Shown: positions 29,323 through 62,139 of the stretch, piece after piece
How the letters are laid out: each line of letters opens with the position of its first letter
Numbering within the stretch: the first letter of the stretch is position 1
Assembly (NCBI GenBank): GCA_020846935.1
Contig: JADLCY010000015.1
Coordinates: forward strand, 62,001-126,000
Reading direction: 5' to 3'
Origin: Gemmatimonadaceae bacterium
Lineage (GTDB): Bacteria > Gemmatimonadota > Gemmatimonadetes > Gemmatimonadales > Gemmatimonadaceae
DNA: 64,000 bases
Made by a program: the position numbers and the translations under genes
Notes under the pieces: generated by a model
Databases searched by the model: none
The model's input: the letters and a program-made list of their open reading frames with translations, nothing else
What the model was told of the DNA's origin: nothing

Positions 29323-30498
29323 ATGCCCCTCGTCGCACTGCGCGTTGCTGCCTGCCGCGCTCCCCTGCTGGCGTGCGCCCTCCTGCTCGCGTGCGACCGG
29401 GTTGGGGAGACCACCACGGCTGACTCCACGCAGGCGACCGCCAGCGGCAGCGCTGACTCTGCGGCGAGCGATGCCCCGCGTGCGGCCACGGTCTCGCTGC
29501 CCGTGACCGTGAGCGAGGTGCGCCAGGGCGACCTCGTGCTGAGCGTGAGCACGACAGGCACCGTGCGCTCCGACGGCGAGGCCACGCTCAAGGCCGAAGT
29601 GGCCGGAACGATCACCGCCGTGCTGGTCCGCCCCGGTGACCGGGTGCGTCGGGGCCAGCCTCTGCTCCGCCTCGACGCGCGCCCCTTCGACCTGGCCGTC
29701 CAGGAAGCCGAGGCCGCCGTGGCTGAGGCCGAAGTGCGCTACCAGGACGCCATCGCACCGGATTCCATCGTGCTCGGCCGCGCCCCTTCACCCGAACAGC
29801 GACGCATTGCGCTCACGCGTTCCGGGCTGCAAGGCGCGCGCGTCCGCCTCGATCGCGCCAGGCTCGAGCGCGAGCGCGCGACGATCACCGCGCCGTTCGA
29901 CGGCATGGTCGATCGCGTGGATCGCTCCACGGGCGAACGCGTGGGCGCGGGTGAGACGCTCACGCGCGTCGTGAACCTCGCGGCGCTGCGTATCGAAGCG
30001 TCGGTCCTCGAGCACGACCTGCCGCTCATTCGCGAGGGCGGCGTGGCGACGGTCAGCAGCGCGTCCGCACCGGGTCGCCAGGTCGCGGGTCGCGTCACCG
30101 CCGTGCTGCCGCTCATCGACTCCACCACACGCGCGGGACGCGTGTTCGTGCGCCTGACGAACCCCGGCCCGCTGCGGCCCGGCATGTACGCCGATGTGCG
30201 TCTCGAGTCGCAGCGACTCTCGAAGCGCCGCCTGGTACCGAGCCGTGCCGTGATCGAACGCGACGGCCGGCCGCTCGTCTTCGTGGTCAAGGACGGTCGT
30301 GCACAATGGGTGTACATCACGCCCGGTCGTTCCAACGGTGTCGACACCGAAGTGCTCCCGGACTCCTCGACCGGCACGATCCCCGTTGAGGTGGGCGACC
30401 ATGTGATCGTCGCCGGCCACCTCACGCTGACGCACGACGCTCCGGTGCGGGAGGTCGTCGCCGACACCGCGCGCGGTGCACGCACGGTTCGCCAATAG
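29323..30498 (+). CDS. RND efflux periplasmic adaptor (membrane fusion protein), lipoprotein
   Basis: 391 residues. Lipoprotein signal MPLVALRVAACRAPLLACALLLACDR (lipobox LLAC). The barrel-sandwich (lipoyl) halves are LKAEVAGTITAVLVRPGDRVRRGQPLLRLDAR and ATITAPFDGMVDRVDRSTGERVGAGETL, around a short helical hairpin. A beta-barrel domain (ALRIEASVLEHDLPLIREG...) and a membrane-proximal domain (VPSRAVIERDGRPLVFVV) follow. It links an inner-membrane RND pump to an outer-membrane channel; no TolC-like gene lies in the window. The two permease genes follow directly. Confidence 0.9.
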   Translation: MPLVALRVAACRAPLLACALLLACDRVGETTTADSTQATASGSADSAASDAPRAATVSLPVTVSEVRQGDLVLSVSTTGTVRSDGEATLKAEVAGTITAVLVRPGDRVRRGQPLLRLDARPFDLAVQEAEAAVAEAEVRYQDAIAPDSIVLGRAPSPEQRRIALTRSGLQGARVRLDRARLERERATITAPFDGMVDRVDRSTGERVGAGETLTRVVNLAALRIEASVLEHDLPLIREGGVATVSSASAPGRQVAGRVTAVLPLIDSTTRAGRVFVRLTNPGPLRPGMYADVRLESQRLSKRRLVPSRAVIERDGRPLVFVVKDGRAQWVYITPGRSNGVDTEVLPDSSTGTIPVEVGDHVIVAGHLTLTHDAPVREVVADTARGARTVRQ

Positions 30499-30527: not shown

Positions 30528-33500
30528 GTGTCCCTCGTTTCCGCCGCCGTCAGGCGCCCGGTGTCCACGATCGCTTCGGTGTTCGCGATCGTGCTGCTCG
30601 GCTCCGTGTCGCTGAGTCGGCTTCCGGTGTCTCTGCTGCCCGACGTCACGCTGCCGGTCCTCACGATCCGCACGCTGTACCCGGGCTCGGCGGCCACCGA
30701 GGTCTCACGCTTCATTGCCGAGCCCATCGAGGAGGCAATCGCGGCCACGCCGGGGCTCGTGGAACTGCGATCGATCAGTCGAACGGGCGAGGCGACCACG
30801 ATCGTGCGCTTTGCCTGGGGCACCGACATGCAGACGACGGTGCTCAACGTGCGCGAGCGACTCGACAACGCGCGCGCGCGGCTCCCGGAGCGCGCCGAGC
30901 GTCCGACGCTGCTGACGAGCGACCCCGGCGAACGACCGATCGCGGTGCTCGCGCTCGGCACCGACGGCGATCTGCGGACCTTGTCGCGCGCCGCCGAAGA
31001 GGTTTTTGCGCGACGCCTGGAACAGATCGCCGGCGTCGCCAGCGTGGCGGTCGTCGGCGCGCCCGAAGACGAGATTCGCGTCGAGGCTGACCCGGCGCGA
31101 CTGCGCGCGCTGGGGCTCACGCCCAACGATCTCTCCACCGCTATCGCCGCGGCCAACCCGACCGGATCGAGCGGCACCATTCGACGCGGGCAATTTCGAT
31201 TTGCCGTCCGCACGCTCACCGAGTTCAGGGACCCGTCGGACGTGCTCGAGGTGCCGATCGGGCCGGTGGGCGCTGGCATCAGGGTGCGCGACGTCGCCAC
31301 GGTGTCGGTGACGACGGCCGACCCCAAGACGCTGACGAGACTCGACGGGCGAGGCGCGGTCGGCCTCGTCGTGTACAAGGACGCCGGGTCCAACACGGTC
31401 GCCGTCACGAAGGAGCTCCGAACGAGCGTCGAGGCGCTCACGAAGGAGTTCCCGGCGGTGAAGCTCACGCTCGTCGCCGCGCAGGCCGATTTCGTGGTCG
31501 ACGCGCTGTCGAACCTCGGCCAGGAGATCGTGGCCGGCGGCATCATCTCCCTGCTCCTCATCCTGGTCTTCCTGCGCGACTGGCGGATGTCGCTGGCCAT
31601 CGGCCTCATGGTGCCGCTGTCGGTGCTCGTCGCGCTGGTGCTGCTGCAGCTGCTCGACGTGTCGATCAACGTGCTGTCGCTGGGCGGGCTCGCGCTGGGG
31701 GTCGGGCTGCTGGTGGACAATGCCATCGTCGTCGCCGAAGCGTCGGCGCGAAAGCGCGAAGAAGGCTTGCCGTTGCTGCAGGCCACGATCGAGGCGACCG
31801 AGGAAGTGTCGGGCCCGCTGCTCGCCGGCACGCTCACCACCCTGCTCGTCTTTGGTCCGATCATCTTCGTGCGCGGGCTGGCGGCCGCGCTCTTTCGGGA
31901 CCTGTCGCTGTCCGTGGTCACGTCAGTGGGCGCGTCGCTCGTGCTCGCCCTCACGCTGATGCCGGTGCTCATCGCCGGCCGTCGTCGGCCAGGCGCTACG
32001 GGGAGGGTCGCACCCCGCGCGCCCTCGCGGCTCACGGCCGTGGGCAATGTGCTCGTGCGCTGGTACGATCGCGGGATGCGCTGGTCGCTCGCTCATCCCG
32101 CGATGGTGTTCGGGATCTCGATCGCGGCGACCGTGGCCACGGCGTGGATTGGCATGCGCCTGCCGCGCGAGATCCTCCCGGCGGTCGACGAGCGGGTCGC
32201 GGTGGCGCAGCTGCATCTCGCGGAAGGCACCGCGATCGAGGAGACCACGCGCCAGGTGGCTCGCCTGGAGGAGAGCGCACGCGCGTTAGGCGCGCGCGGG
32301 ATCTACGCGCGAGTCGGCGTCGCCACCGACGAGGAGGTGCTGGCGGGCGCGGAGCCCGGGTCGGCGGCCACGGCGCAGCTGCTGGTCCCCGTGCCCCCGT
32401 CGGTGGACGCAGCACGGTTCGCCCAACAGCTGCGGGCCGCCGTGCCCGACCTGGCATCGGGATCGCTCGCCATCGACCTCGCCGGCCAGTCGGAGTTCGG
32501 TTCCCTGATCGGCCGTGAGGGCCGCACGGTGCGCGTGGAGATCTCGGCGAGCAACCTCGAAGAGGCGGCCCGCTGGGCCGACACGACGCGCGCACGCCTG
32601 GGTTCGATCACCGCACTCACCGATATCCGATCGGCTCAGCAGGGCTCGCAACCGGTCGTCGAAGTGGGACTCGAGCGCGCCCGTATGGCCGAACGAGGCG
32701 TCTCGGTCGATGCCGTGGCCAATGCCCTCGCCGGTGGACTCGGCGGCGTCGAAGCCACCGAACTCCGCGAGACCGACCGCCGCACCCCAATCACCGTCCG
32801 GTACTCCGGGGCCGCCAACGAGGACCTCGGCGCCGCGTTAGGCACGGTGGTGGACGGCACGCCGGTCGAGGAGTACGTGCAGCCCCGCGAGACGCGCTCG
32901 CCGGTGGAGGTCGTCCGCGTGGGCCAGCGCCCGGTGGTCGCCGTCGAAGGACTCGTCGCGGACGGAGGAACCTCGGGCGCCACGGCCGCAGTCACCGACC
33001 TGATGAACACCCTCCGCCTGCCGGGTGGGGTGACGTGGAGTGTCACCGGCGCCGACGCCGAGCAGCGGCGGACGACGAGTGAACTGACGCTGGTGGCGCT
33101 GCTCTCGGTGGCGCTCGTCTTTCTCGTCCTGGCCGGTGAGTTCGGGTCGTTCCGCATCCCGCTGGTCGTGATGCTCACGGTGCCGCTCGCCGCGGCGGGC
33201 GGCATCGTGTTCCTGTGGCTGACCGGGCAGAGCATAAACGCGGTGTCCCTCATCGGCATCGTCGTGATGATCGGCATGGCCGACAACGAGGCCGTCGTCA
33301 AACTCGACGCGATCCGCCGGTTCCGCGAGCTGGGCCACCCGATCGACGAGGCCATCGTCCTCGGTGGGCACCAGCGGCTCCGCGCGATCGCTCTGACGAA
33401 CCTGACGACGATCACCGGCGTGCTCCCGCTCGTGTTCGGCTGGGGCAGCGGCGGCACACTCTACCAACCGTTGGCAGCTGGCGTGATCGGCGGGTCGATC

Positions 33501-33575
33501 TCCGCGCTCCTGGTGACCTTCTTCCTGCTGCCGACCGCGTATGCGGTGCTGGAGCGGCGCGGCGCAGCGCGATGA
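30528..33575 (+). CDS. RND efflux permease subunit A
   Basis: 1015 residues, 12 membrane helices in two repeats with large periplasmic porter loops (HAE-1-like). N-terminus MSLVSAAVRRPVSTIASVFAIVLLG; conserved SRLPVSLLPDVTLPVLTI and GAPEDEIRVEADPARLRALGLTPNDL. In helix 4, GLLVDNAIVVAEAS keeps one Asp (D397) of the AcrB D407/D408 pair. Helix 10 reads GMADNEAVVKLD, not the usual SAKNAI or VNNAIV. Starts at GTG 30528, 29 bases after the adaptor, and overlaps the second permease gene by ATGA. Drives proton-coupled export; substrate unknown. Confidence 0.9.
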   Translation: MSLVSAAVRRPVSTIASVFAIVLLGSVSLSRLPVSLLPDVTLPVLTIRTLYPGSAATEVSRFIAEPIEEAIAATPGLVELRSISRTGEATTIVRFAWGTDMQTTVLNVRERLDNARARLPERAERPTLLTSDPGERPIAVLALGTDGDLRTLSRAAEEVFARRLEQIAGVASVAVVGAPEDEIRVEADPARLRALGLTPNDLSTAIAAANPTGSSGTIRRGQFRFAVRTLTEFRDPSDVLEVPIGPVGAGIRVRDVATVSVTTADPKTLTRLDGRGAVGLVVYKDAGSNTVAVTKELRTSVEALTKEFPAVKLTLVAAQADFVVDALSNLGQEIVAGGIISLLLILVFLRDWRMSLAIGLMVPLSVLVALVLLQLLDVSINVLSLGGLALGVGLLVDNAIVVAEASARKREEGLPLLQATIEATEEVSGPLLAGTLTTLLVFGPIIFVRGLAAALFRDLSLSVVTSVGASLVLALTLMPVLIAGRRRPGATGRVAPRAPSRLTAVGNVLVRWYDRGMRWSLAHPAMVFGISIAATVATAWIGMRLPREILPAVDERVAVAQLHLAEGTAIEETTRQVARLEESARALGARGIYARVGVATDEEVLAGAEPGSAATAQLLVPVPPSVDAARFAQQLRAAVPDLASGSLAIDLAGQSEFGSLIGREGRTVRVEISASNLEEAARWADTTRARLGSITALTDIRSAQQGSQPVVEVGLERARMAERGVSVDAVANALAGGLGGVEATELRETDRRTPITVRYSGAANEDLGAALGTVVDGTPVEEYVQPRETRSPVEVVRVGQRPVVAVEGLVADGGTSGATAAVTDLMNTLRLPGGVTWSVTGADAEQRRTTSELTLVALLSVALVFLVLAGEFGSFRIPLVVMLTVPLAAAGGIVFLWLTGQSINAVSLIGIVVMIGMADNEAVVKLDAIRRFRELGHPIDEAIVLGGHQRLRAIALTNLTTITGVLPLVFGWGSGGTLYQPLAAGVIGGSISALLVTFFLLPTAYAVLERRGAAR

Positions 33576-36500
33576 TCGCCTGGGGCATCCGCCGGCCGGC
33601 CGTGATCTGGGCAGCGAGCGCCGCCTTGCTCCTCGCCGGCCTCATGGCCTTCACGCGGCTGGCGCTCGCGACGCGCACGACCGTGGAACTCCCGACGCTG
33701 TCCGTCTCGGTGTCGTGGCCGGGCGCGTCCGCGGAGCTGAACGAGATGTACGTCGCCTCGCCGGTCGAGGCCGCGATCCAGGGCGTCCGCGGCATCCGGA
33801 AGACGCGCTCGGAGTCGACCGATGAAGGCGTGTCGCTCACCGTTGAGCTGCAGCCCGGTACGGACGTGCAGCTGGCGCGGCTGGGGATCCTGGAGCGCCT
33901 CGAGCTGCTGCGGCGCGAGTTTCCGCCGGGCGTGACACCGCCACGCGTGTCCAACTTCGTGCCCACCGAGCTGCAGGAGGAACCGCTGCTGCTCGTGACC
34001 ATGGGCGGCCCCTACACACCGGGAGCGCTCCAGAAACTCGCCGACGAAGTGCTCGAGCCGCGCCTCTCGGCGATCCCGGGCGTGGCCGGCCTCACGGTGA
34101 GCGGCGGCGCCGAGTTCGGCGTGTCGGTGTCATACAACGCCCGGTTGCTGCGGCAGCTCGGCATCGAAGGCAGCGACATTGCGCGCGCCGTGAGCCAGGC
34201 GCGATCCGTGGCGGCGCTGGGCCGGGACGCGCGCGGGGCGACCGAGCGACCCGTGTCGCTGCGCGACCAGCCGGGCGCGATCGCCGCGCTGGAAGCGCTG
34301 CCGGTGCGCGGCCCCGGGGGACGCGTCTTTCGCGTGGGCGAACTGGCCTCGGTGCGACCACAGGAAGACCAGCGCGGACGCTTCTTCAGGATCAACGGCC
34401 AGCCCGCGATTGCCCTGCGCATCGCGCGGCTGCCTGACGCCGACGCGATCCGGACGGCGCGCAGCGTGCGCGCGACGCTCGACGACATTCGCCGCGGCCT
34501 CCCGACCGGCGTGACGCTCACCGTCGTGAACGACGACTCCGTGGAGCTCAGGGAACAGCTCACGGACCTCCTCATTCGCGGCGGCATCGCGTTCGCGGCG
34601 GTGATCCTCGTGCTGCTGTTCTTCCTGCGCGACGTGCGCGCGACGGGACTCGTGATGTTCAGCGCCGCGCTCGCCGTGGCGGGCACGGCGCTCGGCCTCT
34701 TCCTGTTTCGTATTCCGGCCAACCTGCTCACGCTCGCCGGTCTGGCGATGGGGATCGGCATCCTGGTGCAGAACGGGCTGATCGTGGCCGAGCGTCTCGG
34801 GACGACGCCCGATACGGAGGAGGGCCGCGCCAACGCGGCACGGCGCATCGCACCGGCGGTCGTGGGCGCCAGCCTGACCACGGCGGTCGTGCTCTTTCCG
34901 TTCCTGTACCTGCAGGGCGACGCGCGCGCGGCGTTCATGCCGTTCGCCTCGGCGTTCGTGCTGGGCCTTGGCTGGTCGATCGTGACCGCGGTGGTGATGA
35001 TCCCCGCGCTCGCCGCGGGGCATCGCGTCCACGAGGCCGGATGGCCGCGCGCCCGACGCGTGTACCTGCGCACGTTGCGCCCGCTGGTGCGCTTCCGCCG
35101 GACGACGCTCCTGCTCACTCTGGCCGCGTTAGGCGGCCTCACCTGGGTCTTCGTGAAGAAGGTCCCGCGCTTTGCCTTTGGCGGCTTTGGCAGCGGGCAG
35201 CGCACGGTCATCCAGGCGTTCATTTCGTTTCCCCGCGGCTCCGACCCCGCGTCGCTCGACGCCGCGATGCGGGAACTCGAGCACGTCGCCGTCGGTCAGC
35301 CGGGTGTCGAGCGCGTCTCGGCCCAGAGCTACGGCGCGTTCGGCGCGGGCATGCAGGTGCTCTATCGGCGCGAAGACGAGCTGAGCGCGCTGCCCCTGCA
35401 ACTCGAAGAAGCGCTCACGCAGCGCGCTGTCTTCATCGGCGGTGCGTCCGTGTCGGTGCGCGGGCAGGGGCCCGGGTTCGCCTCGGGGCTCGGCGGCGCG
35501 AGCATCGCCACGTTCCGCATCCGCGTACTCGGCTATTCGTTCTCCGGCGTCGAACGGCTCGCGCTCGACCTCAAGGAGCGGCTCGAGGGCATCCCCCGCG
35601 TGCGCGACGTCGACATCAACAGCTCGTCGTTCTTTGGCAACGACAAGGCGAGCACGGTGACGGTCACGCCCGATCGCGCGGCCCTGGCGCGCTTCGGCCT
35701 CACGGCGCGGGACTTTGCTCTCGCGGCCGCGCGGGAGATGCGCAGCCAGTCGGGCGCGATTCGCCTCGAGATCGGCGACGAAGAGTTGCCGGTCACCGTG
35801 CAGGTCGAAGGCTCGAACGACCGCTCGCTCGATGAGCTGAGCGACGCGCTCGTGTCCACGCCGACCGGTGCGCCGGTGCGCCTGAGTGCTCTCGCCGCGG
35901 TGAGCGAAGCCGAAGGATTGAGCGCGATCAGTCGGGAGGATCAGCAATACGTGCGATTCGTCGCCTACGAGTTTCGCGGCCCCAACAAGCTTGCGCAGCG
36001 CACGCACGACGCCTTCATGGCTTCGGTCACCCTGCCGCCCGGCTATTCGGTGGCCGATGCCGGCTTCGGACGCTTCGAGCCTGACGAGAGCGAGAAGGGA
36101 CTCTGGCTCGTGTTTGCCATCGGGATCGCGCTCGTGGTCCTGAGCGTCGCGATCGTGTTCGACTCCGTCTGGGGCGCGGCCGCCGTCTTCCTCTCGCTGC
36201 CGGTCTCGCTGGGCGGTGTGATGGCGGCGTTCTGGCTCTTCGACGCCGCGTTCACCCGTGAGGCGGCCGTGGGCGTGATCCTCGTGATCGGCCTCGCCGT
36301 GAACCAGTCGATTCTCGTCGTCGATGCCGCGCTCGAGCGTCGGCGGCGCCTGCAGGCTGCGGGACGCGACCGGCGGCTCGACGGCGGCATGGTCTTGCGT
36401 GCGGCCCTCGATCGATCGGGCATGGTCGTGCTCGTGACCCTGACGTCGCTCGCGTCACTCGTGCCGCTCGCGGTCGGCGTCAAGACGACGTCGCTCTTTG

Positions 36501-36664
36501 GCGCGATCGCACTCGCCACCGCCGGAGGAACGGTGGCCGGGACGCTGGGGGCGATGTTCATCGTGCCGCCGATGCTCGCCGGCCGTCCGCGTCGCCGATC
36601 GCAGCGTCGCATTCCTCCGACCGCCGACGCACCGCCATCGGCGCCGGACGTCGGCAGCACATAG
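33572..36664 (+). CDS. RND efflux permease subunit B, lacking the helix-4 aspartate
   Basis: 1030 residues of full RND architecture: MIAWGIRRPAVIWAASAALLLAGLMAF, LPTLSVSVSWPGASAELNEMYVASPVEAAIQ, porter domains, and a second half with GLWLVFAIGIALVVLSVAIVFDSVW. Helix 4 reads GIGILVQNGLIVAERLG, so the AcrB D407-D408 position is Q400-N401; helix 10 reads GLAVNQSILVVDAAL. With no acidic residue in helix 4, proton relay through this subunit is doubtful. It overlaps the first permease (ATGA) and probably forms a heterotrimer with it, as MdtB and MdtC do in E. coli. Confidence 0.88.
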   Translation: MIAWGIRRPAVIWAASAALLLAGLMAFTRLALATRTTVELPTLSVSVSWPGASAELNEMYVASPVEAAIQGVRGIRKTRSESTDEGVSLTVELQPGTDVQLARLGILERLELLRREFPPGVTPPRVSNFVPTELQEEPLLLVTMGGPYTPGALQKLADEVLEPRLSAIPGVAGLTVSGGAEFGVSVSYNARLLRQLGIEGSDIARAVSQARSVAALGRDARGATERPVSLRDQPGAIAALEALPVRGPGGRVFRVGELASVRPQEDQRGRFFRINGQPAIALRIARLPDADAIRTARSVRATLDDIRRGLPTGVTLTVVNDDSVELREQLTDLLIRGGIAFAAVILVLLFFLRDVRATGLVMFSAALAVAGTALGLFLFRIPANLLTLAGLAMGIGILVQNGLIVAERLGTTPDTEEGRANAARRIAPAVVGASLTTAVVLFPFLYLQGDARAAFMPFASAFVLGLGWSIVTAVVMIPALAAGHRVHEAGWPRARRVYLRTLRPLVRFRRTTLLLTLAALGGLTWVFVKKVPRFAFGGFGSGQRTVIQAFISFPRGSDPASLDAAMRELEHVAVGQPGVERVSAQSYGAFGAGMQVLYRREDELSALPLQLEEALTQRAVFIGGASVSVRGQGPGFASGLGGASIATFRIRVLGYSFSGVERLALDLKERLEGIPRVRDVDINSSSFFGNDKASTVTVTPDRAALARFGLTARDFALAAAREMRSQSGAIRLEIGDEELPVTVQVEGSNDRSLDELSDALVSTPTGAPVRLSALAAVSEAEGLSAISREDQQYVRFVAYEFRGPNKLAQRTHDAFMASVTLPPGYSVADAGFGRFEPDESEKGLWLVFAIGIALVVLSVAIVFDSVWGAAAVFLSLPVSLGGVMAAFWLFDAAFTREAAVGVILVIGLAVNQSILVVDAALERRRRLQAAGRDRRLDGGMVLRAALDRSGMVVLVTLTSLASLVPLAVGVKTTSLFGAIALATAGGTVAGTLGAMFIVPPMLAGRPRRRSQRRIPPTADAPPSAPDVGST

Positions 36665-36689: not shown

Positions 36690-36800
36690 CGCCTAACGCA
36701 CGATCGTCGCTCATGCGCGCAGATCCTGGCGCGCGCAACCGCCTGACGCACACCGCGACCGATGAGCGCAGAATGTGGCGGGCGCGGTCGCCTAACGCCG
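36690..36800. repeat. About 50-base tandem repeat between convergent gene ends
   Basis: Units beginning CGCCTAACGCAC (36690) and CGCCTGACGCAC (about 36741), then CGCCTAACGCC at 36790, share GATGAGCGC/CTCATGCGC and TGGCGSGCGC segments. The last copy contains the diguanylate cyclase stop codon (TAG inside GTTAGGC). The array fills the short spacer after the permease gene. Confidence 0.55.
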
Positions 36801-38036
36801 GCCGCGCCCGCGCTTGCCGGCCAGCAGGCGTCCGTCGGCCTCCTCCAGCAGTTGCGCGAGCGTGCGAGGGTGCTCGGCACTGTGCCAGGCCACGCCCCGC
36901 CCAATCGAGAGCGCGTACGGTCGCCCCGCGGCCGCGTTACGCTGCGCGAGTTGCCGGTCGAGTCGGGACAGAAGCACCTCGCCCGTCGCGTCCTGGGTAT
37001 TCACCGCGAGCACTACAAACTCGTCGCCGCCGAGACGGCCAATCAGGTCCGCCTCGCGGAACGTCTCCCGCAGCAAGTCGGCCACGTCCACCAGCGCCTG
37101 ATCGCCCACATGGTGCCCAAACTCGTCGTTGATCGCCTTGAAACGATCCAGATCGAGATAGAGCAGGACCGCCGGATGCGGCTGACGCGCGGCGACGGTA
37201 AGAAGCTGCTGCGCCAGCAGCGTAAAGCCGCGTCGGTTGTAGAGCCCGGTCAGCGAATCCGTGAGCGACAGACGGTGGAGCGCCTCTTCGTGAGCGGAAC
37301 GTTCGGTGATGTCCCGAACGACCATCGCCATGCCACCCGAGATCAGCGAGACCGTGAGTTCCTGCGGATACGTCGTGCCGTCGGCGCGTCGGCCGGTCAC
37401 CTCGCCATGCCAGTGCTCCTGCATGACGAGTTCCTGCAGGATCGACCGATCAAAGACGTCCAGTTGCTCCGGCGAATAGAACTCGCGCCAGCTCCGCCCC
37501 TGCAGTTCGGCGCCGGTCGCATGACCGTGCATGCGGGCGAACGCACCGTTGGCCATGCGAACGCGCTGCGTGTCGTCGAGCACCAGGATGCCGTCGATCG
37601 AGAGTTCCATCACGGACGACAGCTCAACGAAGCGTCGGGCCAGTGTGCGTCGCTCGGACACGTCGCGGCCGCTCCAGAGCCGGTGGGATGCCGCAGCCGC
37701 GCTCCCGCCGAGCGGTGCGATCGAGACCTCGTGCCAGAACGGTGTTCCATCCCGGCGGTGGTGCTGCACCTCGACGCGTCCCCTCGATCCCGTGCGAAGC
37801 AGGCCCGCCAGGCGCGCCGAAGCGAGCCGATCGGTCTCCGGACCTGCGAGCAGGTCGAGCGGCACGGCACCCAGCGACTCGTCAGGCCGAAACCCTGTCA
37901 CCTGCTCGAACGCCGCGTTGGCCCACACGACGCGACCCGCACCGTCGATGACAAGCATGGCGTCGGTGGCGTGGTGCGCCGCGGCGGCGACCACCTCGTC
38001 GAGGGTGGCCCGGGCGGAATCGGTGGCGTGCGACAT
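36792..38036 (-). CDS. PAS-PAS-GGDEF diguanylate cyclase
   Basis: 414 residues from ATG 38036. PAS 1 (about 20-125) has AMLVIDGAGRVVWANAAFEQVTG; PAS 2 (about 140-250) has DGILVLDDTQRVRMANGAFARMHG and the coupling DITERSAHEEALHRLSLTDSLTGLYNRRGF. The GGDEF domain has the intact active site GGDEF at about 336-340, preceded by the inhibitory-site motif READ five residues before it, so it should make c-di-GMP and be product-inhibited. It is soluble with no membrane helix; PAS ligands are unknown. A start at 38126 would add 30 residues. Confidence 0.9.
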   Translation of the reverse strand: MSHATDSARATLDEVVAAAAHHATDAMLVIDGAGRVVWANAAFEQVTGFRPDESLGAVPLDLLAGPETDRLASARLAGLLRTGSRGRVEVQHHRRDGTPFWHEVSIAPLGGSAAAASHRLWSGRDVSERRTLARRFVELSSVMELSIDGILVLDDTQRVRMANGAFARMHGHATGAELQGRSWREFYSPEQLDVFDRSILQELVMQEHWHGEVTGRRADGTTYPQELTVSLISGGMAMVVRDITERSAHEEALHRLSLTDSLTGLYNRRGFTLLAQQLLTVAARQPHPAVLLYLDLDRFKAINDEFGHHVGDQALVDVADLLRETFREADLIGRLGGDEFVVLAVNTQDATGEVLLSRLDRQLAQRNAAAGRPYALSIGRGVAWHSAEHPRTLAQLLEEADGRLLAGKRGRGRR

Positions 38037-38205
38037 GGGCAGGTGGGTCCTGCTGCGAGTATCGGCAGCGATATCGTCCGGTTGACCTGTTTCCGCTCTG
38101 GAGGCACCACTGGGGGCGTGGCTCATGCAGCCGGCCTGTACGTCGGGCGTGCCATGGAGCAACGTTGAGCGCGCGATCTGCTCACCCTCGCTGCCCCGAA
38201 CCCAC

Positions 38206-39602: not shown

Positions 39603-41144
39603 TCAGTCTCCGTCGTGGCCGCCCCCCCCGCTCGGGCCGACCTGCAGCCTCTGCTCCAGATCCCCGAGCACGTCTTCGATCTGCGCGAGCGCCGAGCGTA
39701 GGTCGTCGGCGATCTCCTGCGCAAGCAGGTGCGGCTCGGGAAGACTCGCCGAATCCTCCAGGCTCTCGTCCCGCAGCCAGAAGAGGTCCAGGCTCACCTT
39801 GTCGCGGGCGAGGATCTCGTCGTAGGTGTACGGCCGCCAGCGGCCCTCGGGCGTCGCGTCGGACCAAGTCGCCTGTCGATTGTTCCGATCGCCGGGGCGG
39901 TAACACGCGACAAACTCGTCGAGGTCCGCGCGTGCCATGCGTTTGGTCTTGAGCGTGAAGTGCCTGTTGGTGCGCAGGTCGTAGACCCACACCGTTTTCG
40001 TCCACGGATCCTTCGCGCCGGGCCGGCGGTCGAAAAAGAGCACGTTGGCCTTCACGCCCTGCGCGTAGAAGATGCCGGTCGGCAGCCGCAGCAGCGTGTG
40101 CACCTCGCACTCCTGAAGCAGGTTCCGGCGCACCGTCTCGCCCGCTCCACCCTCGAACAGCACGTTGTCCGGCACGACGACGGCGGCCCTGCCGTGGACC
40201 TTGAGCAGCGACTTCACGTGCTGGACGAAGTTGAGCTGCTTGTTCGAGGTCGTCGTCCAGAAGTCGGGGCGGTTGTAGGTGAGCGATTGGCGGTCGGTGT
40301 CGCCTTCTTCGTTCACGATCGTGATCGACGACTTCTTGCCGAAGGGCGGATTGGTGACGACCACGTCCGCGTGCGTGCCCGGTTCGTCGCGCAGCGCATC
40401 GTCGGTGCGGATTGGCGGCTCGTGGTCGTCGCCGGCGTTGGGGCCGATGCCGTGCAGGTAGAGGTTCATCCCGCAGAGGCGTGCGACGTTAGGTACCAGC
40501 TCCGTGCCGCGCAGCGCCTCGAAGCGCAGGTGGCGCTTCTGGTCGCGGTCCAGCTCAGAGTGGTTCTTCACGTACTCGTGCGCCGAGAGCAGGAACCCGC
40601 CCGTGCCGCACGCAGGGTCGGCGACGATCTCGCCCGGTTGCGGGCGCACGCAGTCCACGATGGCGTCAATGAGCACGCGGGGCGTGAAGTACTGCCCGGC
40701 GCCGCCCTTCACGTCCTGCGCGTTCCGCTCGAGCAGCCCTTCGTACGCGTCGCCCTTCACGTCGGCCGACATCGCCGACCAGTTCTCCTTGCCGATCAGC
40801 TCCACCACGAGCTGCCGCAGCTTGGCCGGGTCCTGAATCTTGTTCTGCGCCTTCTCGAAGATCAGGCCGAGCATCCCGCCCTCCTGGCCGAGCACGCGCA
40901 GCGTCTCGCGGTAGTGCTGTTCCAGCTCTACGCCCTCCATCTGCGGCGACGCGAGGTCGGCCCAGCGATGGCCCTCCGGGATCGGCTGCGGTTCGCCGGT
41001 GAGCTGTGCGCGCTCGTCGGCCATCTTGAGGAACAGCAGGAAGGTGAGCTGCTCCAGGTAGTCCTGATACGACAGCCCGTCGTCGCGCAGGACGTTGCAG
41101 TAGGACCAGAGCTTCTGGACGATGCGATTGGCGGCGTCGCTCAT
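39603..41144 (-). CDS. hsdM: Type I restriction-modification DNA methyltransferase subunit
   Basis: 513 residues. The N-terminal HsdM helical domain (MSDAANRIVQKLWSYCNVLRD, YLEQLTFLLFLKMADE) precedes the N6-adenine methyltransferase core: SAM motif I ADPACGTGGFL (about 175-185) and catalytic VVTNPPFGKK (NPPF 265-268). It methylates adenine in the target set by HsdS and is required for cleavage too. Its ATG overlaps the TGA of the ATPase gene (ATGA), so its translation depends on that gene. A run of eight C near 39621-39628 gives a Gly-rich C-terminal tail and is slip-prone. Confidence 0.95.
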   Translation of the reverse strand: MSDAANRIVQKLWSYCNVLRDDGLSYQDYLEQLTFLLFLKMADERAQLTGEPQPIPEGHRWADLASPQMEGVELEQHYRETLRVLGQEGGMLGLIFEKAQNKIQDPAKLRQLVVELIGKENWSAMSADVKGDAYEGLLERNAQDVKGGAGQYFTPRVLIDAIVDCVRPQPGEIVADPACGTGGFLLSAHEYVKNHSELDRDQKRHLRFEALRGTELVPNVARLCGMNLYLHGIGPNAGDDHEPPIRTDDALRDEPGTHADVVVTNPPFGKKSSITIVNEEGDTDRQSLTYNRPDFWTTTSNKQLNFVQHVKSLLKVHGRAAVVVPDNVLFEGGAGETVRRNLLQECEVHTLLRLPTGIFYAQGVKANVLFFDRRPGAKDPWTKTVWVYDLRTNRHFTLKTKRMARADLDEFVACYRPGDRNNRQATWSDATPEGRWRPYTYDEILARDKVSLDLFWLRDESLEDSASLPEPHLLAQEIADDLRSALAQIEDVLGDLEQRLQVGPSGGGGHDGD

Positions 41145-42610
41145 AGATCCTTGATCAGCTCCTCGATGTCCTGATGCATGTACCCCGCGCGCTCGGCGTC
41201 CCGACGGGAATCCGCCGTGTGTCGTGTGGTGATCGCGACCTTCTCGATGCGCCAGCCGCTCACGGCGTCATGGCGACCAAGAAACCGCGCGACGTGCTCG
41301 TCGAAGCGCGCGTAGTCCGGTGCCAGACGCTCGGCGGCCCGCTTGCATGTCCCGACTCGAACGATGCGATCCTCCTCGTTCAGGGCCACCAGGTCCAGTT
41401 CGGTGTCGCCGCGATCCCAGTAGCCGTGAATTCGCGCCGTCAGACGGAATCCGTCGAGCCCCTTGCGGCTGCGTTCCTCGTACAGTGCGCCAACCAGCTT
41501 CTCCAGTCCGTACCCCTCGGTGTCGGCCAGGCGACGGTCCGCCTCGCCGACGAGCTCGCCGAGTGGACGGAAATGCACCGATGCCGCAGGGGTCGCGAGC
41601 GCCGCGAGCCACGACCGCAGGAAGTTGTCAGCGATGTAATACCGCCCATTGCGGGCCGACGCCTTGGCGAACACGGGCTGGCGCTGCTCGATCATGCGAT
41701 ACCGGTCGCGCAGCACCTGCAGGTAGCCGCCCACCTGCTTCTCGCGTTCCGCGTCCACCTGACGCGCATGCGCCAGGATCTCGCCATTGGAACAGCCGGG
41801 ATTCCGGGCGACGTACTTCAGCACGAGGTCGTAGCGTCCGCTCAGTTCGCGCAGGAACCAGTTCTCCGCCTCCGTGCGCAATGGAGAGGAGCTGGAGAAG
41901 AACAGTTCGCGCACGAGATCACCGCGGTCGGCGCCGATGACGCCCTCCTCGTACGCGTCGCGATAGAACTTCGGCACGCCCTCGAAGAGGTTCCACAAGA
42001 AGAGCAGACGACTCGCCGACGGCTCCGCGTGCACCCGGATGATTTCGAGGACCGAGGCGATGTCGAGGTGCTGCACGTCCAGCGTGTCCGTGACACGCGC
42101 GAAGAGCGGTGCGCTGCGCTCTTCGAGCAGTGCCGCCATCTCGGTGTGGATGGAGCCGAGGACGATCAGTCCCCCCTGCACATCGGCGGCGTCGCGTGCC
42201 AACTGGTCCACCTCGTACTGCAGATGTGAGGTGAACTCGTACAGCACCTTGCGGTGGAAGTACTGGAACTCGTCGAGTGCGACGACGAATCCCCGGCGGA
42301 CCAGCGCGCCGATCGCCGCCGCAAGGGTGCGCAGGTCGGTCGGCGGTGACACTTCGACGCCGAACAGTTCGAAGAAGTCGCGCGCGGCAGAGACGACGCC
42401 CGCCGGGTCGGAGTCCGGCACCTGCAGGTAGAGGACGCGATCGCGCCCTTCGGCCTGTAGGGCCTGATGCACGAGGCTGGTCTTCCCGATCCGGCGGCGC
42501 CCCGAGACTTTGAGGAAGAACCAGCGCCGACGGCGCAGGATATCCCGCAGCGTTTCCAGTTCGTGGCGTCGGCCGTAAAATGTCCATGGGGAACGACTTA
42601 CGGCGCTCAT
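41141..42610 (-). CDS. AAA ATPase with C-terminal DUF234-like region, inserted in the type I RM operon
   Basis: 489 residues. The N-terminal archaeal-ATPase-type domain starts FYGRRHELETLRDIL, with Walker A SGRRRIGKTSL (about 36-46) and Walker B FVVALDEFQYF (108-118). A winged-helix segment (about 255-315: ELSGRYDLVLKYVARNPGCSNGEIL) follows. The C-terminal region matches DUF234 in layout, with YGLEKLVGALYEE, then TELDLVAL and VGTCKRA: a PD-(D/E)XK-like E...D...xCK pattern with Thr where the family usually has Glu. It lies between hsdS and hsdM, 19 bases after hsdS and overlapping hsdM by ATGA. The position recalls RM-linked guard genes such as prrC, but its role is unknown. Confidence 0.85.
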   Translation of the reverse strand: MSAVSRSPWTFYGRRHELETLRDILRRRRWFFLKVSGRRRIGKTSLVHQALQAEGRDRVLYLQVPDSDPAGVVSAARDFFELFGVEVSPPTDLRTLAAAIGALVRRGFVVALDEFQYFHRKVLYEFTSHLQYEVDQLARDAADVQGGLIVLGSIHTEMAALLEERSAPLFARVTDTLDVQHLDIASVLEIIRVHAEPSASRLLFLWNLFEGVPKFYRDAYEEGVIGADRGDLVRELFFSSSSPLRTEAENWFLRELSGRYDLVLKYVARNPGCSNGEILAHARQVDAEREKQVGGYLQVLRDRYRMIEQRQPVFAKASARNGRYYIADNFLRSWLAALATPAASVHFRPLGELVGEADRRLADTEGYGLEKLVGALYEERSRKGLDGFRLTARIHGYWDRGDTELDLVALNEEDRIVRVGTCKRAAERLAPDYARFDEHVARFLGRHDAVSGWRIEKVAITTRHTADSRRDAERAGYMHQDIEELIKDL

Positions 42611-42611
42611 G

Positions 42612-42636
42612 AAGGTAAGGTAATAGTTTCTACCTT
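42612..42636. promoter_or_regulatory. AT-rich inverted repeat at the hsdS/ATPase junction
   Basis: AAGGTA at 42612-42617 and 42617-42622 (overlapping direct copies) faces TACCTT at 42631-42636. It contains the hsdS stop codon and lies immediately upstream of the ATPase ATG (42610). Its AT-richness suits an internal promoter, operator or ribosome-site hairpin that could adjust expression of the ATPase and hsdM separately from hsdR and hsdS. Confidence 0.45.
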
Positions 42637-44213
42637 AGGCGCCAAGTGCTTCGGGTCGCGTCACGCCGGTCGCGACTTTTGCCGCCCGCCCGAGGAGTGC
42701 GAGGCGATTCGGCGCGCTCGGCGCGGATGCGTTCGAGGAGGACGGAGGCCGGCTCGTCGGACGGGTCTTGGTCCACGAGTCGGCCGTCGAAGGCCCACTT
42801 GAGGATGGATTGGCGGAGACGAACGGCCCTGAGCCGATTCGCTGACGTTACCGAGAGAGCATTCTCCGCGAGCGACAGCAGTGCGTTCACATTCTCCACG
42901 ATCCGGGCTTGCTCGACCTGCGGCGGCAGTCGAATGGCGAGGGGAGCTATATCACCATGATTGATCTGTGGCACGTTCGAGCCATCAGCGAGTGAGCCAA
43001 GGTCCAGATCACTGAACCAGAGCCACAAATAGCTCCCAACCCCTCCGACGGGGACCACACCCATTGTGTTCAAATCGTATGTACTCGGGCATGCTAATAG
43101 CCGCTTCTTGTTGGTGCCGATAGCGCCACCTCGCTTCGGGAAAATGATCGTTCCAGCCGGACGAACGTGAAGGCCCAATGCAGCGACCTGCTCAGCCGTC
43201 AACCACTCCTTGGCGACATTCATCCGCAACTCGTTATTAGGAGTGTTCATATCGCCGATGCGAAACCACGGAATAGCGCCCTCTGCCGCCCCAGCCGATG
43301 TAACGCCACTTGGCGTTTGCCCTGAAGCGATGAAGCCGAGCTGCTCAACGGATGCCCAGCACCACCCCTCCGGCAGCTCGGGCAGCCCGCTCGTATCCGG
43401 CGCGGCCGGCTCCACGTACTTCGCTTTCCACTCGTTGTCCTTCGGCGCCTTGCCCTTGGCCGTCATCTTCGCCAGCTCGGATTCCTCCCACCGACGACGG
43501 CGTTCGGCGAGGATGCGCGTGAGGAGCACCGAGGCCGGCTCGTAGCTGCGGCCCTCGGCGCGGGCCAGCTCCGCCTCGGTCGGCACCAGTCGCCCTTCGA
43601 CGGCAGCCTTGAGCACCGAGGCCCGGTAGCGCTTCAGGTTGCGCTGCACCCGCTCCAGCGTCGCCGCCGCGTCGTCGAGCCGGGTGAAGTAGGACTCGAG
43701 GGCGGAGACGATGCGACGCTGCTCGGAAAGCCCCGGGAGTGGTATCGAGAGTGATTCGACATCACCCTTACGAAGCGAAGGCACTGTCGTTGCACGCGCG
43801 AGATCGCCAAGACGTAGTGTGCAGGTGAAGTAGAACAGGTACTCGGGGTCAAGGACGTCGACGTCCGGTGCCATCCCGAAAACGTTGTTGTCAACCAATG
43901 ACGGCCGGCCGAGCATCGCTCGACGGTTCAGAGCGATTGCCGCGCCGATCTTTGCGAAAACAGTGGTTTGGGCAGGCAGCGGACGCGCACCAAGCCCGTT
44001 CGCTACTTCATCGGTGACGTAGTGTTGTGCGGCTGACAGAACCTTGTGTCCTTGCCGCCACGCCTCGGAGATGTCTCCAACCTTGTAGAACGGGATCGCA
44101 CCACTCGTCTGACCTTGGAGATGAACAGGGAAACCAACCCCTGCGAGTAAACGACCCAAGTCTCTAAGTAGTGCTGTTGTCCACCCGGTAGGCATAGCGA
44201 CCTCGCCGCTCAT
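42630..44213 (-). CDS. hsdS: Type I restriction-modification specificity subunit
   Basis: 527 residues with two target-recognition domains (about 5-160 and 255-415), each followed by a conserved helical spacer. The matching spacer motifs YEPASVLLTRILAERRRR and DEPASVLLERIRAER show the tandem half-subunit design that recognises a bipartite site. LSIPLPGLSEQRRIVSALES and IRLPPQVEQARIVENVNALL are the usual TRD-helix junctions. ATG 44213 overlaps the hsdR TGA. The second TRD is less GC-rich than the flanks (about 57% GC over 43021-43140), as expected if TRDs are exchanged. Confidence 0.94.
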   Translation of the reverse strand: MSGEVAMPTGWTTALLRDLGRLLAGVGFPVHLQGQTSGAIPFYKVGDISEAWRQGHKVLSAAQHYVTDEVANGLGARPLPAQTTVFAKIGAAIALNRRAMLGRPSLVDNNVFGMAPDVDVLDPEYLFYFTCTLRLGDLARATTVPSLRKGDVESLSIPLPGLSEQRRIVSALESYFTRLDDAAATLERVQRNLKRYRASVLKAAVEGRLVPTEAELARAEGRSYEPASVLLTRILAERRRRWEESELAKMTAKGKAPKDNEWKAKYVEPAAPDTSGLPELPEGWCWASVEQLGFIASGQTPSGVTSAGAAEGAIPWFRIGDMNTPNNELRMNVAKEWLTAEQVAALGLHVRPAGTIIFPKRGGAIGTNKKRLLACPSTYDLNTMGVVPVGGVGSYLWLWFSDLDLGSLADGSNVPQINHGDIAPLAIRLPPQVEQARIVENVNALLSLAENALSVTSANRLRAVRLRQSILKWAFDGRLVDQDPSDEPASVLLERIRAERAESPRTPRAGGKSRDRRDATRSTWRLR

Positions 44214-47080
44214 GCCGCCAGCGCCCCATTCAATTCATCCAGCATCTCGCGCAGCTTCCCCCCAAACACCTGCGCCGCCCTCCCCCGCCCGCCGGCCTCC
44301 GCGAACGGTGCGTAATCCAGATCCTCCACCGTCATCTCCACGCTGGTCGCAATGTGGTCGCGCATCATCTCGAGCCAGCGGCGCTGCTCGGCGGTGAACG
44401 CCCGCCCGCGGTTCTCCTGCTGCGCCATCCATTCATCGAACCTCGCACGCACCTGCTCGCCGAACGGCACCAGCTCGTCGTCCCGGTGCGTCGCGAAGCG
44501 CACCAGCGAGACGATGTCCGTCAGCAGCTTCCCCGACCCACCACGCACTCGGTCCTTCCGTAAGGTCTCATAGGCGCGCCAGAGTTTGTCCGGCGTCCAC
44601 GCGCGCGGCGGTGCCTTGATCGCCTCGGCCAGCGCCTTGATGTCATTGAACGAGAGACGCTTTGAATACGGCTGCGCATAGAAGAACTGGAGCGCGTCGA
44701 TCTCGTCCTTGTGCTCACCAATGAAGCGCTCGAAGTCGGCCACGAGCGACTGCGCCTTCTCCCTGGCCTCGGGGCTCGCGCCCGCTTCGAGTAGCTCGTC
44801 CTGCGATACTTCGTCGATCACCTGCTCCAGCTCGCGCTTGAGATCGACGAGCAGCGTACGCAACGAGGGGTTAGTGGCCAGCGGCTCGGTAGCACGCTTG
44901 AGCAGGGTCTCGGCGGCCTGCCTTATCTGCAGATCGGTCGGCTCCGCATCCGCCGGCACCGCGAAGACGCGGCGCGCTTCGACAATCTGCCGGTCGGGGT
45001 CGAGGCCCTCAACGACAGCGCCACAGATCGCAGCGAGTGTCACTCCGCCCGACGCTTCCGCGATGCGCGCCCGCTCCGCAGGTCCGCACTGCTTGTCGAG
45101 CCGCGCGAGGCGGCTCGCGAGCGACGAGAGCGCCTCCGGGTCGGTGCCGCCCATCGCCACGTGCTCCAGCAGCGCCTTGAGGCTCACCGTACGTTGCCGG
45201 TCGAGCGGCTGCGTGTCGGCGAGCTGCGCCTCGGTCATCCCCACGCAATCCACGATCACGAAGTGCGTCTTGGCGACGGCGTCCTCGCCGCTCACAGCAC
45301 GCAGGTCGTTCGGGTCGATGATGCGCACGCCGCGCCCCTTCATCTGCTCGAAGAGCACGCGACTCCTCACCGCGCGCATGAACATCACGATCTCGATCGG
45401 CTTGATGTCCGTGCCGGTGGCCACCATGTCCACGGTCACGGCGATGCGCGGCTCGTACTGGTTGCGGAATGCCTGGATCAGGTCCCGCGGATTCGACTCC
45501 GTCACCTTGTAGGTGATCTTCTGGCAGAAGGCATTGCCACGGCCGAACTCGTCGCGCACGATCTCGACGATGTCCTCGGCGTGGCTGTCGTCCTTGGCGA
45601 AGATCAGCGTCTTGGGGACTTCCTTGCGGCCGGGGAAGATGTCCACCGGCAACCGGTCGCGGAACGTGCGGATGATGGTGCGGATCTGATCCCTCGCCAC
45701 CACGCGGCGATCCAACTCGTTAGGGTCATACGAGAGGTCCTCGTCGGGCGCCTCCCAACGCATCGCGCGGGTGCGGCGGTCCCGGTAGCCGAGCATCGTG
45801 TCGGGCTTTGCCTCCACCGTGGAGCCCTGCGCGGTGATCTTTGTGCGGATGTTGTAGACCTCGAAGTCCACGTTGACGCCGTCGGCCACCGCCCTCGCGT
45901 GGTCGTACTCCATCACGAGGTTCTTGTTGAAGAAGCCGAGTGTCTGCTTGCTCGGCGTGGCGGTGAGGCCCACGAGGAAGGCGTCGAAGTACTCCACCAC
46001 CTGACGCCACAGGGTGTAGATCGAGCGGTGCACCTCGTCGATCACCACCACGTCGAAATACTCGGGCGGGTACGCGGCGTTGTACACCACCGGCAGCGGC
46101 TCCTTCATGGCGGCGCCGCTGCTCTCGAACTGCGAACCTTCTTCCAGCGAGGGATCGAGATCGGCCTCCCCCTTGAGCATGGAGTACACGCGCTGGATCG
46201 TCGAGATGACGACCCGGCTCGAGTCCATGATCGTGTTGGAGGAGAGGCGCTGGACGTTGTACAGCTCAGTGAAGAGCCGGTGGCTGTCGGGGGCTCGATA
46301 TCCCTGGAACTCCGTCTCGGCTTGTTGCCCGAGGTTGCTCCGGTCCACGAGGAAGAGCACGCGGCGCGCGCCGCCGTACTTGATGAGCCGGTAGATGGCG
46401 GTGATGGCGGCGATCGTCTTGCCCGAGCCGGTCGCCATCTGGATCAGCGCGCGGGGACGGTTCTTTTTGAACGAATGATCGAGCTTCGTCACCGCCTCGA
46501 TCTGGTTCGGATAGAGCGAACCCGGTTCGAGCGGCGGCATCGTGCTGATTCGCGCCCGGAAGGAGGCCGGCCTGGTGTCGTCTGCCGCCGTGTAGAGACC
46601 GCCGCCGTCGGCGTGCAGTCGCTTCACCCAGGTATCGAGCGTTTCGGCCTGGATCCACTCGGCGAGGGTTTCCGGGCGATGGATCTCCGACAGATTGCCT
46701 GAGATGGCGCGCGTCTTGGGGTCTGGATCGAGGTCGTTGATGAAGCGGGTCTCGACGCCGGTGCTCAAATAGAGGAACGGAAGCGGCTGTACGGGTGGGT
46801 TGAGCCCGGCGGGGAGGCCGGTCGCGTACTTGTCGACCTGCAGCTCCACGTTGGTCAGTGCGAATCCGGCCGGCTTGGCCTCGAGCACGCCAACCGCCTT
46901 GCCGTTCACGAAGAGCAGGTAGTCGGCGAAGCCGTGTCCCGGCGCCATCCTGAACTCGCGGACGGCCACGCCGGTGCCGGCGGAGAGGTTCATCGCAACA
47001 CGGTCCTGGACGATCCACCCCGCGGCCTCCAGGGCCGCGTCGATTTCAACGCGGGCCTCTTGCTCGGGCGTCGGACTCAT
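44210..47080 (-). CDS. hsdR: Type I restriction endonuclease subunit (translocase/nuclease)
   Basis: 956 residues. The N-terminal nuclease domain has D53 in GFADYLLFVNG and E67-x-K69 in GVLEAKPAG (PD-(D/E)XK). The SF2 motor has Walker A QMATGSGKT (about 214-222), VVIDEVHRSIY (DEVH 348-351), LVGLTATPSKQT and the helicase C-terminal motif MKGRGVRIID. An EcoEI-type C-terminal domain binds HsdM/HsdS. It translocates and cuts unmodified DNA. It is the first gene of the operon, with a 12-base palindrome directly before its ATG. Confidence 0.95.
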   Translation of the reverse strand: MSPTPEQEARVEIDAALEAAGWIVQDRVAMNLSAGTGVAVREFRMAPGHGFADYLLFVNGKAVGVLEAKPAGFALTNVELQVDKYATGLPAGLNPPVQPLPFLYLSTGVETRFINDLDPDPKTRAISGNLSEIHRPETLAEWIQAETLDTWVKRLHADGGGLYTAADDTRPASFRARISTMPPLEPGSLYPNQIEAVTKLDHSFKKNRPRALIQMATGSGKTIAAITAIYRLIKYGGARRVLFLVDRSNLGQQAETEFQGYRAPDSHRLFTELYNVQRLSSNTIMDSSRVVISTIQRVYSMLKGEADLDPSLEEGSQFESSGAAMKEPLPVVYNAAYPPEYFDVVVIDEVHRSIYTLWRQVVEYFDAFLVGLTATPSKQTLGFFNKNLVMEYDHARAVADGVNVDFEVYNIRTKITAQGSTVEAKPDTMLGYRDRRTRAMRWEAPDEDLSYDPNELDRRVVARDQIRTIIRTFRDRLPVDIFPGRKEVPKTLIFAKDDSHAEDIVEIVRDEFGRGNAFCQKITYKVTESNPRDLIQAFRNQYEPRIAVTVDMVATGTDIKPIEIVMFMRAVRSRVLFEQMKGRGVRIIDPNDLRAVSGEDAVAKTHFVIVDCVGMTEAQLADTQPLDRQRTVSLKALLEHVAMGGTDPEALSSLASRLARLDKQCGPAERARIAEASGGVTLAAICGAVVEGLDPDRQIVEARRVFAVPADAEPTDLQIRQAAETLLKRATEPLATNPSLRTLLVDLKRELEQVIDEVSQDELLEAGASPEAREKAQSLVADFERFIGEHKDEIDALQFFYAQPYSKRLSFNDIKALAEAIKAPPRAWTPDKLWRAYETLRKDRVRGGSGKLLTDIVSLVRFATHRDDELVPFGEQVRARFDEWMAQQENRGRAFTAEQRRWLEMMRDHIATSVEMTVEDLDYAPFAEAGGRGRAAQVFGGKLREMLDELNGALAA

Positions 47081-53615: not shown

Positions 53616-53787
53616 GTATGTCGCGCAGGTGATCGGAGGGCTGTCGGGTAATCCCTGAGGCGGTCGTGCGGAGTCCTGCTGCCGGGTTCGGGGATTCTCC
53701 CATGCTGGCGCAGGCCATTGGAAATGATCCTTGAGGTGCAGCCGGACGTCCGGGCCTGCAGAACCCCGAGATCGAGGATCACACTCC

Positions 53788-55785: not shown

Positions 55786-55791
55786 CTCACC

Positions 55792-55824
55792 GCATGGGGG
55801 TGGTCCGAACGACCACCCCCGTGC
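55792..55824 (+). terminator. Strong hairpin between nosZ and the downstream nos genes
   Basis: Arms GCATGGGGGTGGTC and GACCACCCCCGTGC pair over 14 positions (one G-T) around the loop CGAAC, starting 6 bases after the nosZ stop codon. There is no T-run, so it may act as a partial terminator or an mRNA 3' stabiliser. Either would make nosZ more abundant than the accessory genes. Confidence 0.75.
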
Positions 55825-55840
55825 ACTCACCCGCTGGACC

Positions 55841-56479
55841 ATGCTTCCCCTGCGTTCCCGGATCCTGCTCGCTGCCGCTGCCATCCTGATGGCCGGCATG
55901 TTTGTTTTCCCCATCTGGTCCGTGGCCCTGTCGGCACCGCAGTATCCTGAGGGCCTCGCGATGGACATCCGCATCAACACCATCACGGGCCGCACGCCGA
56001 ACGACCTCGGCAACATCAACAACCTGAACCACTACATCGGCATGAAACGGATCGAGCCGGATACGATCCGCGAACTCCGACTGATGCCATACGTAGTCGC
56101 CGCACTGGCCGGCCTCGCGCTGCTCGCGGCCGCCACCGGACGACGCAGCTTGGCGTGGGTCTTTGCCGGTTGCCTGGCGGTGTTCGCCGTCGCCGGCCTG
56201 GCCGATTTCTGGTGGTGGACGTGGGACTACGGCCACAACCTCGACGTGGAGAATGCCATCATTCGTGTTCCCGGGATGTCGTATCAGCCGCCCCTCATCG
56301 GGACGAAGCAACTGCTGAACTTCACGGCCACGTCGTGGCCGGCGGCGGGCGGCCTGTTCGCCTTTGCCGCCGCGGGGCTCACGGGACTCGCTATCTGGTT
56401 CGCGCGCACCGACGCCTTGCGCCAGCGCCATGCGGCCGCGGCAGTTGCCGCGGTGACGGGCGCGGAACGAGTCGCCTGA
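55841..56479 (+). CDS. NosB-like integral membrane protein of clade II nos cluster
   Basis: 212 residues with about five hydrophobic segments (residues 7-29, 81-100, 103-125, 150-175). A conserved extracytoplasmic stretch reads LSAPQYPEGLAMDIRINTITG and INNLNHYIGMKRIEPDTIREL; a second is FWWWTWDYGHNLD. Proteins of this layout sit directly after nosZ in Sec-type nos clusters (nosB in Wolinella-like operons). His/Met-containing loops may handle copper or electrons, but the role is unproven. It starts 55 bases after nosZ, past the hairpin. Confidence 0.65.
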   Translation: MLPLRSRILLAAAAILMAGMFVFPIWSVALSAPQYPEGLAMDIRINTITGRTPNDLGNINNLNHYIGMKRIEPDTIRELRLMPYVVAALAGLALLAAATGRRSLAWVFAGCLAVFAVAGLADFWWWTWDYGHNLDVENAIIRVPGMSYQPPLIGTKQLLNFTATSWPAAGGLFAFAAAGLTGLAIWFARTDALRQRHAAAAVAAVTGAERVA

Positions 56480-56481
56480 GC

Positions 56482-62000: not shown

Positions 62001-62139
62001 AGCCGAGGAATCTAGGCGGCGGCGAGAATGCCCGCCCTGTGATCAGCGCGACCAGAGCGCGCGGATGTCAGGCCATCCCGTCGCCGCTTCCGGTCCGACC
62101 AACCGTTTCCCTGCATCCGGCGGGCCACGTGCCTGGCTC

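Follow-up and report, generated by a model that had tools for sequence, protein, structure and literature searches.

A two-permease RND unit of the Gemmatimonadota in which one permease lacks the proton-relay aspartate

Introduction

The resistance-nodulation-division (RND) systems MdtABC of Escherichia coli and MuxABC of Pseudomonas aeruginosa are encoded by one adaptor gene followed by two tandem permease genes, and the unit analyzed here is built alike. It lies on the + strand of a 64,000-nucleotide stretch of DNA (the window; positions 62,001 to 126,000 of contig JADLCY010000015.1, contig 15 of the 4.5-Mb genome GCA_020846935.1) from a Gemmatimonadaceae bacterium of the Gemmatimonadota, a phylum that includes soil bacteria. 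The unit codes for a periplasmic adaptor and two RND permeases, named A and B in the following, of which B has glutamine at the site of the proton-relay aspartate.

In the usual model of an RND pump, three equal protomers spend protons in turn. The relay aspartate is part of the RND motif GX3DX6E (PMC5719797). For MdtBC, a review states, in the part of it available to us, that the pump suffers more from relay mutations in MdtB than from those in MdtC and that MdtC is the main substrate binder (PMC4338810), and MdtB alone is described in the accessible portion of another study as forming an inactive homotrimer (PMC12802153). In AcrB, the D407N exchange blocks transport, distorts the T (tight) state and leaves the O (open) state largely unchanged (available sections of PMC4359379), and D407N and D407A mutants keep the trimer fold and the contacts with AcrA and TolC (PMC3925222, PMC4359379, both in part). 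B resembles these mutants in having a neutral residue at the same site, but in the mutants three dead protomers leave the pump inactive, whereas here an Asp-bearing partner adjoins and the neutral residue is conserved across genera. A literature search by title and start of abstract, with most subscription journals lying outside it, yielded no paper describing an Asp-less RND permease pair in nature.

Relay residues of permeases A and B

Permease A (1015 amino acids, GTG start, 30528..33575) and permease B (1030 amino acids from the ATG at 33572, 33572..36664) both belong to the AcrB/AcrD/AcrF family PF00873, to which they score 663 and 409 bits at full length (cut-off 28; B over positions 1-1016 of 1021). 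None of the curated cut-offs for RND subfamilies in NCBIfam was approached by either protein; for the CusA/CzcA heavy-metal model TIGR00914, with a cut-off of 701.45, the scores were 367.5 bits for A and 197.3 bits for B. MdtB is the best sequence relative of B with a solved structure (9lyq, E 4e-47). Orthology of A/B with MdtBC was rejected on the basis of scores far below the cut-offs of NF007798 and NF007905 and of the tree placement, since MdtB and MdtC pair together in both trees described below, apart from A and B. Moreover, MdtB and MdtC are 50% identical as compared to 24% for A and B, and MdtB and MdtC both keep the full Asp-Asp-Lys set.

The sequence-only reading had proposed that B lacks the relay aspartate, and alignment to AcrB, with D407/D408 verified on the E. 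coli K-12 sequence, bears this out: residues 399-401 of B read V-Q-N, whereas residues 396-398 of A read V-D-N. Hence Q400-N401 in helix 4 of B (34769..34774) take the place of D407-D408, and the GX3DX6E motif is intact in B (G396-x3-Q400-x6-E407) except for the missing Asp, while it is complete in A, whose D397-N398 lie at 31716..31721. Further replacements in B concern helix 10, where N911-Q912 (36302..36307) correspond to K940-N941, and helix 11, where V955 (36434..36436) corresponds to T978; R971 is retained as R948. The Asn at the K940 site is common to B, A and the Asp-bearing sister pairs introduced below and is thus not part of the loss in B. Q400 is encoded by CAG (34769-34771) and D397 of A by GAC, so that the change from Asp to Gln takes two base changes and a one-base error is excluded. 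All of the remaining six RND permeases of the genome (seven rows, two of which are one gene) have Asp at the site.

The same reading had taken D407-D408 of AcrB as its yardstick. Within this RND branch, however, VDN with a single Asp is what is normally found, as in Acetoanaerobium and all sister pairs, so the Asp pair of AcrB is the wrong baseline for A. The view of VDN in A as a defect was rejected, given VDN or MDN in the sister group (all 35 readable A proteins and all 40 B proteins) and in Acetoanaerobium.

Distribution of the aspartate loss

To date the pair has been followed in Gemmatimonadota genomes only, where 105 B and 93 A proteins were read. Rows of at least 50% identity were taken as Gln-type, with three fragments not covering the site left unfetched and four Gln-like B fragments that lack the site excluded from the site count. 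The Asp-type sample comprises 40 of 85 rows (31-36% identity), picked by hand from the top and from further down the listing, and the paralogs comprise 40 hand-picked, mostly best-scoring rows and one neighbor gene at locus L098. Every Gln-type B covering the site has Gln (61/61; 55 CAG and 6 CAA codons), and these proteins come from 60 genomes and 20 genera in two families of one order. By contrast, B of the sister group has Asp in 40/40 cases from six families, five of the loci lying within one of the two families of the Gln clade. Asp was also present in 82/82 A partners covering the site and in 40 of the 41 paralogs, the last having Thr. A cross-phylum scan returned only close relatives, namely 4 loci, each with Gemmatimonadetes or Gemmatimonadaceae in its title. 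The loss of the Asp in B is therefore confirmed as a fixed, clade-wide trait, and the asymmetry, for which a survey of homologous pairs had been suggested, is a fixed feature of one clade, which spans two families, and does not occur in the sister pairs.

Separately from the pairs, a lone RND permease of genome G050 (L205:6953-10249, contig C24) was observed to read VTN in helix 4 in place of VD[D/N]. An adaptor gene adjoins it and there is no second permease gene. No relative above 40% identity was detected in 148 genomes of the family, and its 19 nearest fetched relatives have Asp.

Conservation, linkage and origin of the pair

Loss of the Asp residue is the one feature that would suggest decay of the gene copy for B, or else a sequencing or assembly error. 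This explanation was rejected and is extremely improbable in view of the agreement of 61/61 proteins from 60 genomes, the two base changes, the full length of B and a ratio of nonsynonymous to synonymous substitution rates (dN/dS) of 0.03-0.26 for B (40 closest pairs listed), which is near the values for A. B is under strong purifying selection. Moreover, mean identity in the transmembrane (TM) part is 0.69 in Gln-type B (41 loci at which A and B are both complete) as well as in Asp-type B (35 loci), which indicates that the membrane domain is not decaying; the periplasmic domains of B are at 0.54-0.63, below the TM value.

The ATGA shared by the stop of A and the start of B (33572..33575) agrees with the overlap of the two genes noted in the sequence-only reading, and it recurs at 43/54 Gln-type and 29/38 Asp-type loci (72/92 overall). 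Genome lists for A and B were compared by eye. Among 395 genomes, at the thresholds used, A of the Gln system was detected in 57, Gln-type B in 61 and both in 55, and as shorter pieces add G313, G335 and G382, A and B occur together in 58 of the 63 genomes in which at least one was detected. In the remaining five, the single gene detected is cut by a contig end, so that none of the 63 genomes has one gene present and the other demonstrably absent. Genome G305 was seen to carry the whole Gln-type pair in two copies (L144 and L145), and in L144 the start of B does not overlap the stop of A.

These observations bear on the possibility that A and B form separate homotrimers, A being an ordinary proton-driven pump and B having a passive or regulatory role as a periplasmic substrate reservoir or a competitor for adaptor docking. 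MdtB, a subunit of a two-permease system, does form a homotrimer, though an inactive one (PMC12802153, in the portion accessible), and the association of A with B is a prediction from sequence. However, the presence of a single adaptor gene, the near-invariant adjacency with ATGA overlap and the lack of any genome with one gene and its partner demonstrably absent argue against this possibility, which we regard as unlikely.

A tree built from 235 proteins resolves four clean clades, one each for Gln-type B, Asp-type B and the A partners of either type, and parsimony places one Asp to Gln change at the relay site within the A+B clade of 183 tips. The four clades remained intact in a second tree, for which single permeases from other phyla were added and the TM4, TM10 and TM11 columns removed; support was 0.997 for the Asp-type B clade, while that of the Gln-type B clade decreased from 0.956 to 0.648. 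This tree recovers A and B as separate monophyletic groups (support 1.0 each) that are not sisters, whereas they were sisters in the first, which weakens the proposal that both arose from one local duplication. The conclusion that the A/B pair is older than the split between Gln and Asp types stands.

Changes accompanying the loss

A compensating acidic residue in helix 10 or 11 of B had been named as an observation that would speak against a proton-silent subunit. No acidic gain was detected in the membrane helices of B when Gln-type and Asp-type proteins were compared, but an older acidic residue, D947, stands at the start of helix 11 beside R948 (D947-R948, 36410..36415; AcrB M970-R971). 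It is acidic in 58/59 Gln-type and 36/37 Asp-type B, so it predates the loss and was not gained as compensation; nevertheless, D947 could still be of importance. R948 is retained in 59/59 Gln-type B. The AcrB T978 site is occupied by Val or Ile in 59/59 Gln-type B, as compared to Thr in 37/37 Asp-type B.

At the position of AcrB D408, six of the 61 Gln-type B have Asp (L066, L067, L095, L155, L156 and L158), together with His at the 940 position in 5/5 readable cases, and parsimony requires at least four Asn/Asp changes at 408 within the Gln clade. B of the window has Asn at both equivalents. The joint variation of 408 and 940 fits a contact between TM4 and TM10, and in the species with Asp-408 a titratable pair may have been restored in B. 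It could be argued that B moves protons or some other ion along another route, via Asp-408/His-940 in some species and via D947-R948 and water in B of the window. The recurrent changes at 408 with their His-940, the conservation of D947 and R948 and the strong conservation of the membrane domain of B would be in line with such a route. Contrarily, Asn, Asn and Gln occupy 408, 940 and 941 in 47 of the 60 fully readable Gln-type B, that of the window included, with Asp and His absent; D947 is found in Asp-type B too and is hence not compensatory in origin; and T978 is lost throughout (59/59). In sum, ion transport by another route appears improbable.

Helix 10 of A (MADNEAV) had been noted as unusual, and the comparison upholds this: D919, E921 and K925 of the segment D919-N920-E921-A-V-V-K925 (33282..33302) stand at AcrB A939, N941 and I945. 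Position 941 is acidic in 54/54 A of the Gln system and 36/38 A of the Asp system, and Lys is found at 945 in the same numbers (54/54 and 36/38), so the odd helix 10 is mostly an old trait of A. It is sharpened in the Gln system, where Asp is present at position 939 in 54/54 A as compared to 8/38 in the Asp system. Likewise, A of the Gln system has Glu at the position of AcrB T343 in TM2 in 45/45 cases (E333 in A of the window, 31524..31526), as compared to 6/35 in the Asp system. For AcrB, the available part of PMC4359379 suggests that E346 on TM2 serves as a proton site on the periplasmic side, and E333 of A, one turn from that position, is on its location probably a proton entry site.

Genomic neighborhood

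The adaptor, a membrane fusion protein (29323..30498, +), scores above the cut-off of NCBIfam TIGR01730 (RND_mfp) and matches Pfam HlyD_D23 and HlyD_3. Its open frame begins with GTG at 29266, and the likely start, with an LLAC resembling a lipobox, is the ATG at 29323. A membrane fusion protein gene precedes A on the same strand at 38/53 Gln-type loci, and the other 15 end at a contig edge.

The Asp-type pairs, found also in other Gemmatimonadota families, share with the Gln-type pairs the order A-B and the ATGA overlap, and their A and B each share a clade with the Gln counterparts. Unlike in the Gln type, their B keeps the Asp, Asn at the 941 position and Thr at the 978 position, and an outer-membrane factor gene (PF02321, confirmed in three) directly upstream of A is usual, giving the order adaptor, outer-membrane factor, A, B. 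This holds for 32/38 Asp-system loci as compared to 1/53 in the Gln system, in which the adaptor abuts A. Outer-membrane factor genes were counted with a home-made profile from Asp-system genes, with which distant members could be missed. It detected one in the fetched stretch of 6/53 Gln-system loci (1 directly upstream of A and 5 elsewhere) and none in that of the other 47; at 16 of the 53, the sequence ahead of A is shorter than 1400 bases. In the genome of the window, outer-membrane factor genes are found on other contigs only.

Elsewhere in the window, Pfam matches identified a PAS-GGDEF diguanylate cyclase gene convergent with B (36792-38162, -), genes for the type I restriction-modification proteins HsdM, HsdS and HsdR (39603-47080, -) with an AAA-ATPase gene between those for M and S (41141-42610), and a NosD gene preceded by one for a nitrous-oxide reductase-like protein (nos_propeller; both within 53731-57738, +).

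Discussion

We consider it probable that A and B form an obligate heteromer, similar to but not orthologous with MdtBC, in which A supplies the proton coupling and B is driven by its neighbors. In its favor are the Gln fixed in B beside an Asp in every A covering the site, the one change at this site in the tree, the lack of acidic gains in the helices of B, the purifying selection on B, the joint occurrence and overlap of the two genes, the acidic gains E333 and D919 in A, and the unequal roles described for MdtB and MdtC (PMC4338810). The two proteins would be the permease subunits of one mixed RND trimer that works with the adaptor encoded just upstream. A would be the energized subunit and would pass protons via D397 together with the lineage-specific helix 10 set D919/E921/K925, R950 and T957, the protons probably entering by E333. 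In B, the core residues Q400, N401, N911, Q912 and V955 are neutral and would resemble a permanently proton-loaded site, so that no complete proton cycle by the AcrB route is expected. The porter and docking domains of B are retained; B probably binds substrate and would be moved through its cycle by neighboring A subunits. Since D407N distorts the T state of AcrB but hardly alters the O state, B with its neutral core should lean to O-like conformations and need its neighbors to reset it.

With regard to stoichiometry, the relay of the permease adjoining the adaptor appears to matter more in both systems, namely that of MdtB according to the part of the review available (PMC4338810) and that of A judging from its residues. 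By analogy with MdtB2C, where MdtB is encoded by the adaptor-adjoining gene as A is here, an A2B arrangement is suggested as the likelier one. The interpretation in the sequence-only reading is partly supported, namely in the missing Asp, the overlap of the genes, the odd helix 10 of A and the asymmetry of homologous pairs; a heterotrimer in which one type of subunit would bind substrate without pumping protons is its predicted part.

Several points weigh against this explanation. When the three protomers of AcrB are covalently joined, a single dead one is enough to stop the pump (PMC8277102, PMC3925222, in the parts available), so that a permanently dead B needs explaining: either RND heteromers escape the one-dead-protomer rule or B is not dead. 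B also retains the acidic D947 in TM11, and Asp-408 with His-940 in some species implies that B is perhaps not proton-silent everywhere. Furthermore, the unpaired Asp-less permease at L205, from the same family, indicates that loss of the Asp needs no partner. Finally, the AlphaFold models, built on shallow alignments (8 sequences for one protein, 6 for the other), are too poor to be read at the level of single residues, with a predicted local distance difference test (pLDDT) value of 59 and a predicted template modeling (pTM) score of 0.37 for B and of 65.6 and 0.50 for A. The strict form of the heteromer, an obligate division of labor in which proton translocation occurs only in A while B handles substrate, is always proton-silent and is cycled only by its neighbors, is put forward tentatively.

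If this division of labor were true, a proton step in every protomer would not be required for functional rotation, as opposed to the usual model of equal protomers. MdtBC had hinted at subunit specialization, yet both of its subunits keep the relay. As a relay-less B has been kept across 20 genera beside a relay-bearing A, the number of proton-carrying protomers in an RND pump becomes testable in a natural system, for which the Asp-type sister pairs are natural controls.

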